A stretch of 29,947 nucleotides of DNA from a virus: the IMG/VR virus record IMGVR_UViG_3300025125_000006, positions 1-29,947 of that record; one strand, given 5' to 3'. Made by a program: the position numbers and the translations under genes. Each line of letters starts with the position of its first letter. The stretch's first letter is position 1. Positions 2,663-9,215 of the stretch are shown here, piece by piece. Under the pieces are notes generated by a model. It did no database searches and was not told where the DNA came from. It saw only the letters and a list, made by a program, of their open reading frames with translations.

Positions 2663-2871
2663 GAGATTGGTTTGTTGAGTTCTATGGATGCCTTCTCATC
2701 TATGTGGAAGGATCCCTTGCGGTTTTTCTCCGGTCCTGTGGGGGGCTTGCAATCTGTGAAGCCGGATGCGGTTCCGCTTGTGAGCGCCTCTTGCTCTGCC
2801 TCCTTATAGGCTCGCTTGTCCCTGGCGCTGGGCTTGTGATAGATGAACATGATTAGGGGCGTCCATGCCAC
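2659..2871 (-). CDS. Hypothetical protein, 70 aa (GTG start)
   Basis: The start is a GTG at 2871 with GAGGAG seven bases upstream; it lies inside the end of the coiled-coil gene before it (19 nt overlap). The protein reads MAWTPLIMFIYHKPSARDKRAYKEAEQEA, then a polar GTASGFTDCKPP and a charged KNRKGSFHIDEK. An internal ATG at codon 8 is an alternative start. The N-terminal hydrophobic patch is too short to be a clear membrane segment. No family is recognised. Confidence 0.6.
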   Translation of the reverse strand: MAWTPLIMFIYHKPSARDKRAYKEAEQEALTSGTASGFTDCKPPTGPEKNRKGSFHIDEKASIELNKPIS

Positions 2872-3029
2872 ATGGCACTCCTCAATTCCTTGTTATCCGC
2901 CTGGAGTTCTTCAACTTTCTTCCGCAATCGCCGGCACTCCTTCTGCCGTGCGTTCCAATTGCGGAAGAGTGATCGTGCGTAGTCGATCATTTCACTCTTG
3001 CTGAGTTTGTTAGGGTCTAGTCCTATCAT
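2853..3029 (-). CDS. Small coiled-coil protein, 58 aa
   Basis: A 58-residue frame (MIGLDPNKLSKSEMIDYARS ... SAMWHGRP). The central and C-terminal part (QKECRRLRKKVEELQADNKELR) has clear heptad spacing of leucines and should form a short dimeric coiled coil; the N-terminus resembles a small helical cap. The ATG follows AAGGAAAG, and the leader AACCTAAACAAAAGGAAAG is a degenerate form of the repeated leader. No function is recognised; a dimeric regulator is possible but unproven. Confidence 0.65.
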   Translation of the reverse strand: MIGLDPNKLSKSEMIDYARSLFRNWNARQKECRRLRKKVEELQADNKELRSAMWHGRP

Positions 3030-3554
3030 ATGCTTTCCTTTTGTTTAGGTTCACTTTCACCAGGTGCGCCCGCTATCATATTGCTGGCACACCTGTCGAA
3101 AGGCGGGCAGCCACACAAGTGGCATGACTGCCCGCACTAACGAGTTAGGTTTCGCCCTGCTGTCAGGACCAGGTTGCATTCCATTCCGCACCTGGTCTTT
3201 CGACTAGATGCCTTTTGTGCAAGGGTCCATAACCCATGTGTCATGTTGCGTGTGCATGGCACATGGCACATGGTGCAGGACGTTCTGCGTTTGTTCTTTT
3301 CGGATGCGTGACCATAGGTCAAGCCTATGCGCCCCCTTGCCTAGTCGCTGCTCTGCGACGAACTAGCCCTCTGGCACTGGCCCCCTATTGCGCTATACAA
3401 TAGAATTGCCAGCCCTAACCACATCACAAGGGCGTAAATCTTGCGTGTTTTAATGACTGTTGTTTTGGCTATGTCCAAAGACGTTAGTGGACATATTTAT
3501 CAATTGAGTAATTCAAGCTCAAGATTTGGCAACCCGCTTACCATATGGCAAGCT

Positions 3555-3606
3555 CATAGGATGCATCCAAGCCCTGACGGGTCATTGCTTGGCTGTAGAG
3601 CCTATG
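3555..3606 (-). repeat. Two-tier hairpin unit A
   Basis: Outer stem CATAGG/CCTATG encloses inner stem CCAAGC/GCTTGG, which closes the 14-nt loop CCTGACGGGTCATT (plus-strand reading). The inner dyad TGAC-GG-GTCA lies within the loop. The same loop recurs in units B and C on stems of different sequence. Confidence 0.85.
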
Positions 3607-3640
3607 CTCATAGATTGCATGACGTATACGCCATGAGAAT

Positions 3641-3691
3641 GGCTTTTGAATAGGGCTTGCCCTGACGGGTCATTGCAAGCCATTTAAAGCC
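3641..3691 (-). repeat. Two-tier hairpin unit B
   Basis: Outer stem GGCTTT/AAAGCC, inner stem GGCTTGC/GCAAGCC, identical loop CCTGACGGGTCATT at 3661-3674. Relative to unit A the inner stem has changed on both sides while pairing is kept. Confidence 0.85.
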
Positions 3692-3699
3692 TACCCGTG

Positions 3700-3747
3700 C
3701 CACCTGATGGGGCTTGCCCTGACGGGTCATTGCAAGCCCTGTGGTGG
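3700..3747 (-). repeat. Two-tier hairpin unit C
   Basis: Outer stem CCACC/GGTGG, inner stem GGCTTGC/GCAAGCC, identical loop at 3718-3731. The inner stem matches unit B, while the outer stem is unrelated to those of A and B but still pairs. Confidence 0.85.
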
Positions 3748-3761
3748 AGACGTCGCGACAT

Positions 3762-3787
3762 CCAAGCCCTGACGGATCATTGCTCGG
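3762..3787 (-). repeat. Two-tier hairpin unit D (variant loop)
   Basis: Inner stem CCAAGC/GCTCGG and loop CCTGACGGATCATT. The two differences from unit A are A-C or C-A mismatches on the plus strand but G-U pairs on the minus strand, which hints that the minus strand is the RNA. The outer stem is weak (GAC/GTC at best). Confidence 0.75.
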
Positions 3788-3800
3788 CTGTAGTCAATCA

Positions 3801-3852
3801 TTCACGGAATGAAGCCCTGCCAGCCGTAGCTGACAGGGCTAGGTTCCGTGAA
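3801..3852 (-). repeat. Two-tier hairpin E, same layout, different loop
   Basis: Outer stem TTCACGGAA/TTCCGTGAA (9 bp), inner stem AGCCCTG/CAGGGCT (7 bp) and a 14-nt loop CCAGCCGTAGCTGA containing the dyad CAGC/GCTG. The layout and loop length match units A-D although the sequence does not. Confidence 0.8.
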
Positions 3853-3867
3853 CGCTTAAGCGTTCAC
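3848..3867. other. Perfect 20-bp palindrome after the 125-aa gene
   Basis: GTGAACGCTTAAGCGTTCAC is a perfect dyad starting 10 bp after the stop of the minus-strand gene. It shares GTGAA with the outer stem of hairpin E, so the two structures are mutually exclusive. No T-run follows, so it is not a standard terminator. Confidence 0.8.
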
Positions 3868-3877
3868 ACTTAGTTGC

Positions 3878-4255
3878 CTATGACTGGAGCTTGTTCAAAG
3901 TATCAAGCTTGTCAACCATGACGGGAATGGCAAGCTTGCCAGCCCTTTCAACGGCTGTGGCTTTCTTGTAGTCAGCCTTTGCCTTGCGCCCATCCTCAAG
4001 AGTGCAAGCCCATTCACTGGCATCCAAGAATACCTTTTTGCCGTGTTCCAGTTCTCCACCGCTAGCGGTGAATGTTTCGGGCATGGTTTCAATGGCGGTA
4101 ATGCCAAGATTGACACAATCCTTCCACTTGTTCATGCTCATTGTTCTACTGAGGTCAGCAAACACTGTTGCCAGTGTTGTTACGATCAGCGTTTTAATGG
4201 TAGCAACGTTAGTTGCCTTATCTGTCTGCTCTGTGGCAGTCTCGTTCTTCTTCAC
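3878..4255 (-). CDS. Hypothetical protein, 125 aa, first gene of the leftward block
   Basis: The frame starts at a GTG (MKKNETATEQTDKATN...). The N-terminal 20 residues are polar and probably disordered, followed by a largely helical protein (IKTLIVTTLATVFADLSR, WKDCVNLGITAIETMPE) and a C-terminus with DKLDTLNKLQS. No Shine-Dalgarno is visible, and a candidate -10 hexamer ends only six bases before the GTG, so the message may be leaderless or the true start may be further in. I recognise no family. As the first minus-strand gene from the divergent control region it is probably expressed early. Confidence 0.65.
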   Translation of the reverse strand: MKKNETATEQTDKATNVATIKTLIVTTLATVFADLSRTMSMNKWKDCVNLGITAIETMPETFTASGGELEHGKKVFLDASEWACTLEDGRKAKADYKKATAVERAGKLAIPVMVDKLDTLNKLQS

Positions 4256-4402: not shown

Positions 4403-4477
4403 GTTAGGACGCCACCGGTCTTCGACCTCTTTTTATATTAGCGAACCACCTATATATATGTGAGCGTGTGAAAAAAT

Positions 4478-4506
4478 TTGACAAGGGCTGGAATGCAGAT
4501 TTAATC
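4478..4506 (+). promoter_or_regulatory. Candidate rightward promoter
   Basis: A consensus TTGACA is followed after 17 bp by TTAATC, a weak -10. The ATG of the small basic protein begins four bases later, so a transcript from here would be leaderless or nearly so. Confidence 0.4.
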
Positions 4507-4510
4507 CGTC

Positions 4511-4738
4511 ATGGACCCAGAAAAGAAGAAAGAGTATTACCTAAACAACAGAAATACTCGACTGAACTACCAGAAAAAATATTACCATAAAAATAAAAAA
4601 TGGATCAAAAGAAAAAGGGCCTTAAAACAAGAGAACAGCCCTGCCTGGAAGGAAGAACAGCGCGAGTATAACCGGCTTTATTATCTCAGAAATAGGGAGC
4701 AGATTCGGGCGCAGCGGGCTGAAAAAGCCAATCTCTGA
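4511..4738 (+). CDS. Small basic protein, 75 aa
   Basis: A strongly basic, tyrosine and asparagine-rich protein (MDPEKKKEYYLNNRNTRLNY, KKYYHKNKKWIKRKRALK) with a repeating YYxxNR pattern at both ends (EYYLNNRN and RLYYLRNREQ). Such arrays are common in small DNA-binding or nuclease-associated phage proteins, but no catalytic motif is present. It is the first rightward gene after the divergent region and has no Shine-Dalgarno. Its stop lies inside a hairpin carrying one copy of the AACCGCTCAGAGATT element, suggesting feedback control; this is inference. Confidence 0.65.
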   Translation: MDPEKKKEYYLNNRNTRLNYQKKYYHKNKKWIKRKRALKQENSPAWKEEQREYNRLYYLRNREQIRAQRAEKANL

Positions 4739-4756
4739 GCGGTTATGCGCTCAGAG
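4730..4756. repeat. AACCGCTCAGAGATT element 1 (inverted) and hairpin
   Basis: The element runs on the minus strand at 4730-4744. Together with CGCTCAGAG at 4748-4756 it forms a perfect 9-bp hairpin (CTCTGAGCG/CGCTCAGAG) around the stop codon of the 75-aa gene. Confidence 0.75.
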
Positions 4757-4782
4757 AGCGTTTTCAAAGACATTGACGGGAA

Positions 4783-4798
4783 AACCGCTCAGAGATTC
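4783..4798 (+). repeat. AACCGCTCAGAGATTC element 2
   Basis: Exact 16-bp match to element 3, in the gene-free stretch between the 75-aa gene and the next gene. Possible protein-binding site. Confidence 0.75.
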
Positions 4799-4871
4799 AA
4801 TTTCGAGCTAAAACGGCTTAATTTGCATCTAACCACCATAGTTGTCATTATCGCTCCGGTGAGCGAGACTG

Positions 4872-4944
4872 AAAACTTTCCCCAGAGGAAAGAATAATTA
4901 ATTCTGTAATAGAATTAATTATTCTTCCTCCTTAAGAAAGTTTT
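4872..4944. other. 73-nt near-perfect inverted repeat
   Basis: Three nested stems share one axis: AAAACTTTC/GAAAGTTTT (outer), AGGA/TCCT with a single bulged A, and AGAATAATTAATTC/GAATTAATTATTCT (14 bp) around the loop TGTAATA. After it comes ATATAGGGGG, not a clean T-run. It could extrude as a cruciform or end transcription in both directions. The rest of the 240-base gap (4739-4978) holds only the repeat elements listed. Confidence 0.85.
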
Positions 4945-4978
4945 ATATAGGGGGTAGCGTCAGTTTCTTTTCTGTGCT

Positions 4979-5476
4979 ATGCTCGCTTTTTACAACCGCT
5001 CAGAGATTCCCATGACCGCTCAGATATTTAAATCCGACAAACGACTTCCGCTCCCCGACACCAAGAACTACGAAATTGATGAGTATGGGTTTGTTTACCG
5101 CAATGACAAACGCATACGCTTACAACGACAGCATAGCCGGTGGTATGCGCAGGTTTACACTGTAGCCGGCAAGAAGCTCCGGTTCGACTCTGAACGGTTG
5201 GCCCGTGCCATGTTCGGTGAAAAGGAATACTCGCTCCGGCGCAGGGATATTGAGCAGAACTATGATGTACGAACTGTGCCTGAATTCCCACGCTATGTAG
5301 TCACCTCCTACGGAGCCGTGTATTGCATTGATCCACCCAAGCGGGGTCCCAACGCTGGACAATGCTACTTGGTCAGTGCGACATTGCCCAGAGACAAGCC
5401 CTATGTGACCTTATACAGGGCGGATGGCACATGTCGCAAGAAGCAGGTTAAATGGGTAACAGACTCTGCTTGGTGA
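4979..5476 (+). CDS. NUMOD4-like DNA-binding protein, 165 aa
   Basis: The C-terminal part (about residues 105-160: PRYVVTSYGAVYCID, then YVTLYRADGTCRKKQVKWV) follows the NUMOD4 pattern seen beside HNH nucleases in phages. The part before it (KNYEIDEYGFVYRNDKRIRL, then FDSERLARAMFG) looks like a second, diverged copy. No HNH or other catalytic motif is present, so a DNA-binding protein rather than an active homing nuclease is likely. The start may instead be the ATG at 5012; neither has a Shine-Dalgarno. Two copies of the AACCGCTCAGAGATT element overlap the region between these starts and the first codons, suggesting autoregulation. Confidence 0.65.
   Translation: MLAFYNRSEIPMTAQIFKSDKRLPLPDTKNYEIDEYGFVYRNDKRIRLQRQHSRWYAQVYTVAGKKLRFDSERLARAMFGEKEYSLRRRDIEQNYDVRTVPEFPRYVVTSYGAVYCIDPPKRGPNAGQCYLVSATLPRDKPYVTLYRADGTCRKKQVKWVTDSAW
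4994..5028 (+). repeat. AACCGCTCAGAGATTC elements 3 and 4
   Basis: Element 3 (4994-5009) is identical to element 2. Element 4 (ACCGCTCAGATATT, 5015-5028) differs at one base. They are 20 bp apart start to start, about two helical turns, and bracket the second possible ATG of the NUMOD4-like gene. Confidence 0.7.
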
Positions 5477-5523: not shown

Positions 5524-7746
5524 ATGCCATCTGACAAACTGGAAATAGAAGCTCTTGATGGATTGGCCTCCCTTGATGAGAAGGGGAAGCCATTCAAGAG
5601 TCGCCTGAAGGATGTAAAGAGTGCGCTTGCAATCTTTAGCAACCTACGCAAAGCCGATGAGGGGTCATCCGTTAACCGCGCACGGGTTGATGCAATGTTT
5701 GATGGTTCCAGTCCGTATGACCAGGCTGGCCTGAACCGCAGTGGTCAGGGCTTGAAGACGAACCTGAACTTCGGGGAGGCACAGCGGTTGCTGGACATTT
5801 CGATGTCTGCCTATGTTGACCTTTACTCATCCCTGGAGAAACTGGTTGAGGTGAAAGGAACAGAGGGAGAGGCAGCGGAGATTGGCCCGAAGGAGAGTAT
5901 TGTTTCTGAGGAGATCACGCACATGCTGCGCAGTTGGCCTGAGTTCCATTCCAGCTACCTGCGCCTTTGCAACACGTTCATTAAACATGGGGTAGGTGTC
6001 GCTTATTTTGATACCCCCGATGATTGGCGGTTCAGGGTTGGTAGCTTTGCTGATATCCTGATCCCCAGGCAGACGCCGGCATCAGAGGACATGATCGATG
6101 TCGCAGTGGGCAGGAGGAGCTACCACATGCATGAGTTGTTTGCCTTCATCAAGAACGAGAAGGCTGCCGCCCGTGTTGGCTGGGATGTTGAGGAAGTGAA
6201 GCGGGTGATCATGAAGAATGCCACTACGAGTGGGCGCAGTGGTTCCAATCGATATTCGGATTGGGAGACACTCCAGCAGGAGATGAAGAACAACGACATT
6301 CATGCCGGTTACCAGAACCCGACTGTGAGCGTCCTGCATTTCTGGGTCCGCGAGATGGACAGTTCAATTTCCCATTACATTTGTGCAGAGGATTCCCCGA
6401 AGGAATTTCTCTACAAGAAGATTTCCCGTTACGAGAAACCTGAACAGGCGTATGTCCTGTTTGCCTATGGGGTGGGTTCCAATGGCACATACCATTCGGT
6501 CAGGGGTTTGGGGCATAGAATTTTTAACCATGTCCAGACCAGCAATCGTTTGCGTTGCCAGATGATTGATGGTGCGATGCTGGGCAGTTCGGTAATGATC
6601 CAGCCTGAGAGCCAGCGTTCGCTGGACGAGTTGGGCTTTACTTATTATGGGGCGTATGCCGTCCTGTCCCCTGGGGTCAACATCATTGAGAAGGCGATCC
6701 CGAATCTAGGCACAGCCGTGCAACCTGCCTTGCAGGATATATCGCAACAGCTTGCGATGAACACGGACACGGTCAGCACCTATGGTTCTGAGAAGTCATC
6801 CCCTTACCGCAACCAGATGCAGGTGGTAGCCGACATGGATGTCAGCACCCGTTTGTCTGGGGCGAGCCTGAATCTTTTCTATGCAAGCTGGAACCGTCTC
6901 CTGCGGGAAGTCGTCCGGCGGGTTGTGCAGAACAAGCGTGGTGATGCAACCACGAAGGAATTTTACCAGCGGTGCGAAGCGCGTGGTATTCCTGAATCTT
7001 TTATCAAGTCCCTTGACACAGCCAGGACGAGGGCAGTCAGGTCGATTGGTAACGGCTCTTATGCCAATCGACTTGTGGCCTTGCGCGAGTTGCAGGGTAT
7101 TGCGGGTTCCTTCGATGAGGTGGGACGCAAAAACCTCACCCGTGATATTGTGTCAACTCGCGTGGGCCACGACCTCGCTGACCGGTATACCCCGCAGCAG
7201 CAGGAAGCCCGCCCGACCATAGACAACAAGATCGCTTTCTTTGAGAATCAGCAGTTGATGCAGGGATCCCCCGTTCCGGTAGTATCCAACGAGTTACATG
7301 GCGCACATCTACAGGCGCATGTTCCATCCTTGATGCAGATTATTGAGCAGCTTAACACTGGGGCTGCCGACCCGATACAGGCGTTGCCCGCGCTACAGGC
7401 ATTTTACCAGCACATTGCTGAGACCACCCAGTTCCTTGCCGGTGACCCAAGCCAGGCCCCAGCAGTGGGAGAAGCCAACCAAGCCCTGCAATATGCGGAG
7501 GAGATGATAAACAACACATCCAAGCAGGTGCAGAAGATGCAACGCGAGGGTGAAGGCGCACCTGAAGGGGGCGCACCTGAAGGTGGCGACATGGCCATGG
7601 ACGCCAAGGTGCAGGAACACCAGATGAAGATGCAGATGGCACAGCAGAAGGCGGAGCTTGACATGAGCTTAAAACAAGCCAAGTTCGATCAGGAACAGGC
7701 GATGCGGGATGCCAAGAATGCCTTGGAGATAAGGCAGACCCCATAA
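5524..7746 (+). CDS. Portal protein
   Basis: A 740-residue protein of the size and character of short-tailed-phage portal proteins (P22-like class), the dodecameric ring through which DNA enters and leaves the head. The first 60 residues are charged helix. The core (about 60-560) is mixed alpha/beta with the conserved-looking WEFHSSYLRLCNTFIKHGVG-type helix region near 140-155 in variant form. The C-terminus carries a Gly-Pro-Glu linker (GAPEGGAPEGG) and a long coiled coil rich in Gln, Met and Lys (about 690-735), typical of the portal barrel. It stands first in the virion module, before scaffold and capsid. Terminase, usually just upstream, is not in the window. Confidence 0.85.
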   Translation: MPSDKLEIEALDGLASLDEKGKPFKSRLKDVKSALAIFSNLRKADEGSSVNRARVDAMFDGSSPYDQAGLNRSGQGLKTNLNFGEAQRLLDISMSAYVDLYSSLEKLVEVKGTEGEAAEIGPKESIVSEEITHMLRSWPEFHSSYLRLCNTFIKHGVGVAYFDTPDDWRFRVGSFADILIPRQTPASEDMIDVAVGRRSYHMHELFAFIKNEKAAARVGWDVEEVKRVIMKNATTSGRSGSNRYSDWETLQQEMKNNDIHAGYQNPTVSVLHFWVREMDSSISHYICAEDSPKEFLYKKISRYEKPEQAYVLFAYGVGSNGTYHSVRGLGHRIFNHVQTSNRLRCQMIDGAMLGSSVMIQPESQRSLDELGFTYYGAYAVLSPGVNIIEKAIPNLGTAVQPALQDISQQLAMNTDTVSTYGSEKSSPYRNQMQVVADMDVSTRLSGASLNLFYASWNRLLREVVRRVVQNKRGDATTKEFYQRCEARGIPESFIKSLDTARTRAVRSIGNGSYANRLVALRELQGIAGSFDEVGRKNLTRDIVSTRVGHDLADRYTPQQQEARPTIDNKIAFFENQQLMQGSPVPVVSNELHGAHLQAHVPSLMQIIEQLNTGAADPIQALPALQAFYQHIAETTQFLAGDPSQAPAVGEANQALQYAEEMINNTSKQVQKMQREGEGAPEGGAPEGGDMAMDAKVQEHQMKMQMAQQKAELDMSLKQAKFDQEQAMRDAKNALEIRQTP

Positions 7747-7749
7747 ATT

Positions 7750-8055
7750 ATGCCAAAAGAAATAGCGTTACCTGTCCCATTGGACAGGTGGTTTAATGAT
7801 GTCAAAAAAATTGAGGAATTGCGAACTGTCTTGGATTCTGAGGCTTTCCAAACGGCATCAGCAACCCTTAAAGAAGTTGCCGGTCCCACCTATGCTTCCG
7901 TCAGCACGGACGCCGCGGCAAACAACGGCAGGTTTTCCTGGTATGCAGGATACCGTGATGCTTTTAATGATCTTTACAAACTAACCCGTATACAAGGAAA
8001 TAAACCAAATCCACACCAAGCTGAAGAATGGACACACATACAGAATCCGCAGTAG
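7750..8055 (+). CDS. Small virion-module protein, 101 aa
   Basis: A 101-residue protein starting four bases after the portal stop and overlapping the scaffold gene by 28 nt. It contains NNGRFSWYAGYRDAFNDLYKL near residue 58-78, an aromatic helix pattern often seen in small proteins encoded between portal and scaffold genes, followed by a proline and histidine-rich tail. I recognise no defined family. Position suggests a role in head assembly, but this is context only. Confidence 0.65.
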   Translation: MPKEIALPVPLDRWFNDVKKIEELRTVLDSEAFQTASATLKEVAGPTYASVSTDAAANNGRFSWYAGYRDAFNDLYKLTRIQGNKPNPHQAEEWTHIQNPQ

Positions 8056-9215
8056 CTGAAGCCCCCGCTGAAGAAGCATCCCCCGCTGTAGAGCAATTGC
8101 CTGATGCCCCAGAAGAACCCGCTAGTTTTTCCGACGCGCTGGAACAGGCGCTCCATAACCTTGAGACCCCTGAACCAGCACCAGAAGCTGCCCCAGAGGT
8201 TAAGGAGGTTCAGCCCGAAGAAGTCGTTAAGCCAGCGGAGGATCCGCCCCTTGCAGATGAGACCCAACAGGAAACGACTACACCTGAGAATCCCCTAGAG
8301 AGCCTGACAGAGGAAGTTGGGGACGACTGGACACCCAAGGCTGCCAACCGCTTTAAGCAAATTAAAGGTGAGCTAAAGAACAGCCAGTCTGAGTTGGAGC
8401 AATTGCGCCAGACGGTCAAGGTGCAGGAATCCAAGATGCAGGAGATGTCCGGCTTGGTGGAGAACCGCGACATTGACCAGTTACAGAAGACAGTTGCTGA
8501 TTACGAGTATGATAAGGCTTTCACTAACCTGGAGGATACTGCGGCATACCAGCAGTCGGTAACAGAGCCACTGCACAACCTCCTGAATTCCGCTAATGAG
8601 GTCGCAAGTAAATACAATGTAGATGCAGACACAATGGTGGATATCATTGCGATGGATGACCAGGAGGCACAGGATGAGGCTATCCTTGAGCATTTAACAG
8701 AGGCATCAGACAGGGACAGGGCGCAAATTTACCGCATAGTGGAGGAAGTCCGCCCAGTGCTTGCCCGCCGGCAGGAGTTATTCGAGAATGTGCATCAGGC
8801 GCTGAACGAGGCAAACATGCTGGAGGATCAACGCAACAACATGGCTGCTGCGGAACGCGCTGAGATACGCACCAATGTCACCCGCAACGTGATCCAGCGT
8901 GTAAATGAGAAGCTCCCCTTCCTGAGTGGGGTTGAGGGACTTAACATGGATGCCATCCAGGCGAAGGCCGCAGATGTAGACCCCAGCGTGGTACACCCCG
9001 TAGACTTCGCCTATAACGCTGTAGCCGCACAATTGTTACCTACACTTGTCCGTGAGTATATGTCATCCCGCAAAGAGGCTGAAGCACTTATGGGGAAACT
9101 GGCTGAGTATGAGGGTGCAGAACCTACTATGTCCGGCGCACCTGCTGGGGAAGGCTCTACCATATCATCAGACAAGTCTTTCATGGATGCTATTGATTCT
9201 GCCCTGGGCGGATAG
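8028..9215 (+). CDS. Capsid scaffolding protein
   Basis: A 395-residue acidic protein. The first 110 residues are Ala, Pro and Glu-rich and probably disordered (AEAPAEEASPAVEQLPDAPEE). A long coiled coil follows (about 110-150: RFKQIKGELKNSQSELEQLR, QTVKVQESKMQEM), then a helical body and a C-terminal GEGSTISSDKSFMDAIDSALGG. Composition, length and position immediately before the capsid genes fit a scaffolding protein, which templates procapsid assembly and then leaves. It overlaps the preceding gene by 28 nt. A fused protease domain is not visible. Confidence 0.75.
   Translation: MDTHTESAVAEAPAEEASPAVEQLPDAPEEPASFSDALEQALHNLETPEPAPEAAPEVKEVQPEEVVKPAEDPPLADETQQETTTPENPLESLTEEVGDDWTPKAANRFKQIKGELKNSQSELEQLRQTVKVQESKMQEMSGLVENRDIDQLQKTVADYEYDKAFTNLEDTAAYQQSVTEPLHNLLNSANEVASKYNVDADTMVDIIAMDDQEAQDEAILEHLTEASDRDRAQIYRIVEEVRPVLARRQELFENVHQALNEANMLEDQRNNMAAAERAEIRTNVTRNVIQRVNEKLPFLSGVEGLNMDAIQAKAADVDPSVVHPVDFAYNAVAAQLLPTLVREYMSSRKEAEALMGKLAEYEGAEPTMSGAPAGEGSTISSDKSFMDAIDSALGG

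Follow-up and report, generated by a model that had tools for sequence, protein, structure and literature searches.

A candidate large structured noncoding RNA with four repeated capped hairpins in an uncultivated marine phage

Our analysis of a 29,947-base sequence from an uncultivated marine tailed phage (IMGVR_UViG_3300025125_000006; "the window" below is this whole stretch of DNA) identified a structured noncoding element of about 850 nt. Its folded shape is kept while its sequence changes, and it is therefore most likely, as judged from comparison with related sequences, a large structured RNA of a kind not described before. The element contains four units in which near-identical caps sit on differing stems, an arrangement that is not due to chance. 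The initial annotation had placed the element at 3555-3787; this extent proved too narrow, as the units are part of the longer structure (Table 1). We consider it probable that the element is a leftward RNA whose four cap modules serve one partner and whose 3′ hairpin is an end or processing point.

The window phage encodes a family-A DNA polymerase, a primase-helicase and an endolysin. Small leftward genes occupy 1-4.3 kb and rightward genes, structural by their position, follow from 4.5 kb. Relatives of the putative portal gene were found at 56 loci in IMG/VR, and a search of INPHARED returned none. The element sits between two leftward reading frames, the 125-aa gene and the 58-aa ORF. Several repeats and candidate signals were also observed in the surrounding DNA. 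Five copies of a ~59-nt element (at 1225, 1441, 1699, 2044 and 2437; span 1225-2495) lie between the leftward genes and read ...AAACGTGGAATGTATAACCTTAACTA...AGGAGGT on the minus strand; this repeat, also present in the related contig IMGVR_UViG_3300025151_000038 (L125), is apparently a promoter with a ribosome-binding site. At 4453-4484, ahead of the first rightward gene, TATATATGTGAGCGTGTGAAAAAATTTGACAA is kept in many relatives and is likely a phage promoter. Where the rightward genes start, positions 4730-5037 carry CCGCTCAGAGATT / CTGAGCGGT repeats in both orientations, as does the relative L127. In another relative, L128, the leftward half (L128:1-9050) carries short perfect palindromic hairpins, all differing in sequence and apparently within genes too, at a density of ~11 per kb over the locus and with an abrupt end as the rightward genes set in.

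Table 1. Features in and around the element (window positions unless stated; strands of RNA features are those predicted)
Feature	Position	Strand	Remarks
Structured noncoding element, ~840-850 nt	3035..3873, limits approximate	minus	Fold, divergence, no kept frame
58-aa ORF	2853..3029	minus	Just downstream of 3′ hairpin; preceded by AAAAGGAAAG
3′-terminal hairpin	3054..3102	minus	CUUUC-GA-CAG...CUG-GU-GAAAG
Heptamer-phased TGCA-type array	3228..3275; L125:5275-5370	.	~60 nt longer in L125
Unit A	3555..3606	minus	Inner stem 3567-3572/3587-3592, cap 3573-3586, outer stem 3555-3560/3601-3606
Unit B	3641..3691	minus	Inner stem 3654-3660/3675-3681, cap 3661-3674, outer stem 3641-3646/3686-3691
Unit C	3700..3747	minus	Inner stem 3711-3717/3732-3738, cap 3718-3731, outer stem 3700-3704/3743-3747
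Unit D	3759..3793	minus	Inner stem 3762-3767/3782-3787, cap 3768-3781
5′-end hairpins of predicted RNA	3796..3867	minus	Long stem 3796-3857, cUACGg (UNCG) loop
20-bp palindrome GTGAACGCTTAAGCGTTCAC	3848-3867		Overlaps 5′-end long stem; perfect in L125 too
125-aa gene	3878..4255	minus	Upstream of RNA, same strand; homologues in L125 and L129 only
Large gene, putative portal (from position and size)	5524-7746		No family match

The four two-tier hairpins are real and extend over 3555-3793, with the inner and outer stems of units A, B and C pairing as the initial annotation had described. Its account of a loop identical in three units and nearly so in the fourth also agrees with our counts: CCCTGACGGGTCATTGC occurs in three exact copies and one with a single mismatch and is absent from the rest of the window. 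The in-register copies lie at 3564-3598, 3652-3686, 3709-3743 and 3759-3793 (spacing 88, 57 and 50). When the 246 nt were shuffled, three hairpins with 14-nt loops and at least six Watson-Crick pairs were matched in only one of 2,000 cases (mean 0.06). The 14-nt loop is not open, as had been assumed, but folds on. On the minus strand the cap reads GC-AA-UGA-YCYG-UCA-GG-GC and forms an AA/GG 2x2 internal loop, a 3-bp stem (TGA/TCA) and a UNCG-like YCYG tetraloop; this apical stem covaries, from TGA/TCA in the window to TGC/GCA in L125.

The element as a whole is noncoding. Hidden ORFs of 45, 58, 61 and 70 aa are all disrupted in L125, with no frame kept, and the changes across their codon positions are flat, unlike those of the 125-aa control gene. 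Divergence between the window and L125 is 17% in the element, compared with 35% in the control gene and 28% in the other flank, so that the element has changed about half as much as the neighbouring gene. The minimum free energy of its minus strand is -356.5, and stability exceeds that of shuffled sequences in three genomes (z -9.3 in the window, -9.8 in L125 and -8.7 in a distant relative, L129), several of the shuffles being dinucleotide-block approximations. The copy number of the TGCA heptamer array differs strongly between the window and L125.

L125 aligns across the whole region with 77% identity and keeps all four units. Among the eight units of the two genomes, pairing is 100% and GCAAUG...CAGGGC is invariant, while two-sided changes occur at four of nine pairs, including an apical A-U to C-G exchange. 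The outer stem of unit A shows three two-sided changes in L125, and the 5′-end hairpins carry compensatory changes as well. Caps tend to resemble each other within each genome, which suggests that they evolve in concert. A fold predicted from the window only and scored on L125 gave 12 two-sided compensatory pairs (null mean 4.0, maximum 12), and 35 of its pairs were broken (null mean 54, minimum 39; 2,000 randomisations). Of the 242 pairs in the RNAalifold consensus of both sequences, 17 showed two-sided changes, whereas 0-1 did so when the partner was slid. L129 lacks overall sequence similarity to the units and carries three UGAUACGUCA-capped hairpins (UGA-UNCG-UCA) on the same strand and equally far from the portal gene. 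Moreover, the 20-nt framework CUUUCGACAG...CUGGUGAAAG of the 3′ hairpin is identical in the window, L125 and L129, and its distal (inner) stem covaries, with four two-sided changes. Together with the pairing kept across the units, these comparisons support the initial annotation's claim of a structure under selection; with one close and one distant homologue, the covariation is based on few sequences.

The RNA is probably encoded on the minus strand, as had been proposed from unit D. This unit folds at -8.7 kcal/mol (z 0.0) on the plus strand and at -14.5 kcal/mol (z -1.85) on the minus strand, where A-C mismatches of the plus strand become G-U pairs; unit C reaches a z of -3.96 on the minus strand. 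For the region 3500-3870, z is -7.5 on the minus and -3.9 on the plus strand. In helices conserved between the window and L125, which were sought with G-U and A-C treated alike, the non-Watson-Crick pairs comprise seven G-U on the minus strand and one A-C, and the corresponding ratio within single genomes is 4:1 in both the window and L125. Every non-Watson-Crick pair of the 3′ hairpin is G-U on the minus strand. However, a cruder test of all stems predicted from one genome, whether kept or not, revealed no strand bias (7 changes from Watson-Crick to G-T, 10 to A-C), so that the minus strand is probable and not certain.

The initial annotation had assigned the hairpins to no named family, and Rfam returned no match at the gathering score anywhere in the window, nor did GOLLD or ROOL match 3000-3900 at E-values up to 5. 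By our searches, the distribution of the element is narrow, the 56 related loci yielding one close homologue and a distant one: pairing is conserved in L125 and L129, but in these two only. A covariance model built from the units recovered the window and L125 among 57 loci but no other locus. Searches with the unit pattern, with a pair of conserved 17-mers and with the 125-aa protein (as single sequence and as alignment) found nothing beyond L125 and L129. IMG/VR was searched with exact patterns. The CCTGACGGGTCATT pattern gave more than 100 single matches, which is the chance level, and those checked lacked similarity in the noncoding region; the 3′ hairpin pattern matched genome contigs 59 times where ~50 are expected by chance, and three additional viral matches fold differently. 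L127:7640-8300 folds strongly, but was left out of the RNA set because it contains a plausible ORF for a 110-aa membrane protein (7894-8226, minus). UNCG hairpins on the minus strand ahead of the portal gene showed a weak clade-wide surplus, and we make no claim from it. At the same promoter-proximal slot, L169:6060-6860 (minus) holds, at 6080-6830, an unrelated, noncoding-looking stretch of ~750 nt without a match in Rfam. Its predicted fold (z -4.3) is that of an ornate RNA and includes three cUUCGg tetraloops.

In the reading we favour, the phage would transcribe the element leftward together with its small early-type genes, from the interval that separates the 125-aa gene from the following cistron. 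The hairpins, four paralogous copies, would be repeated modules that combine one conserved cap with interchangeable stems. They would most likely offer the same recognition surface four times to a single protein or RNA partner, and the RNA could thereby act as a multivalent scaffold or sponge. Directly ahead of the next ribosome-binding site, the 3′ hairpin may mark the end of the RNA or a processing point. More tentatively, the element may possibly belong to a new class among the large ornate RNAs of phages, made of repeated capped-hairpin modules and located promoter-proximally in the leftward operon of a marine phage clade. Unrelated ornate RNAs, such as the one predicted in L169, would share this slot, which is kept while the RNA in it is exchanged or diverges fast. 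Large structured phage RNAs are few and their functions open; our reading, if true, would add a further candidate class, one in which a module is repeated within the RNA. Such a module is useful for finding the partner, as one RNA offers four near-identical baits, and the defined genomic slot in this uncultivated clade is a place to seek more such RNAs.

Could the element instead be a stretch of a polycistronic leftward mRNA, intercistronic or untranslated, whose hairpins serve RNase III-like processing, stability or attenuation rather than forming an RNA of their own? We regard this as rather unlikely, although the genes on both sides lie on one strand, neither a clear promoter nor a clear terminator was found to bound the RNA, its 3′ hairpin directly precedes a ribosome-binding site, and two-tier hairpins with internal loops recall the RNase III sites that separate early genes in phages. 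Yet 850 nt with ~20 helices and four paralogous modules would far exceed the needs of processing, and the gene that follows the hairpin differs between the window and L125 while the RNA stays.

Less likely is a role at the DNA level, as a replication origin or protein-binding repeat array with the units as cruciforms or iteron-like operators. An origin was among the roles suggested in the initial annotation, next to a decoy and a regulatory RNA, and the sequence by itself does not separate the three. A GC-skew minimum and the divergent gene switch lie close to the element, but the skew tracks gene orientation. The TGCA heptamer array looks like a DNA-level feature, the 20-bp palindrome at 3848-3867 is still a perfect dyad in L125, and a TGAC-GG-GTCA dyad is present within each cap. 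However, iterons keep their sequence, whereas here the stems vary with pairing maintained and only the cap is conserved, and the non-Watson-Crick pairs of conserved helices are mainly G-U on the minus strand. Proliferation of selfish or hypervariable palindromes without specific function appears highly improbable. The leftward module is hairpin-rich in relatives, with 111 perfect hairpins in L128 where 8.5 are expected, but those hairpins lack a G-U bias (11:8) and are unrelated in sequence, while the element is more conserved than adjacent coding DNA, shows compensatory changes and maintains the order of its units and their caps.

Compared with known systems, the large structured RNA that we propose resembles the type III antitoxin ToxI in having several structured RNA repeats of ~35 nt close to a small gene. 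ToxI repeats are contiguous and followed by a ToxN-like toxin gene, whereas the units here lie 50-88 nt apart and a ToxN-type toxin would need a longer downstream ORF than the 58 aa present, so that identity with ToxI fails on both spacing and neighbouring gene. RNase III processing hairpins of the T7 type are located between early genes; the 3′ hairpin is similarly an irregular two-tier structure with an internal loop just upstream of a cistron, but unlike such sites the window has four paralogous copies inside an 850-nt noncoding element. Nearest in kind are GOLLD and ROOL, of which the element is no member. They often lie near phage tRNA islands, whereas ARAGORN detected no tRNA in the 30-kb window, and homo-oligomeric nanocages are a feature of these two families. 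In further contrast to both, the element matches neither covariance model, is restricted to few marine phages and has no demonstrated multibranch core. GOLLD and ROOL are large, ornate phage or prophage RNAs of unknown function, and many GOLLD members exceed 800 nt (PMC12286853); like them, the predicted RNA is phage-encoded, several hundred nucleotides long and rich in helices.
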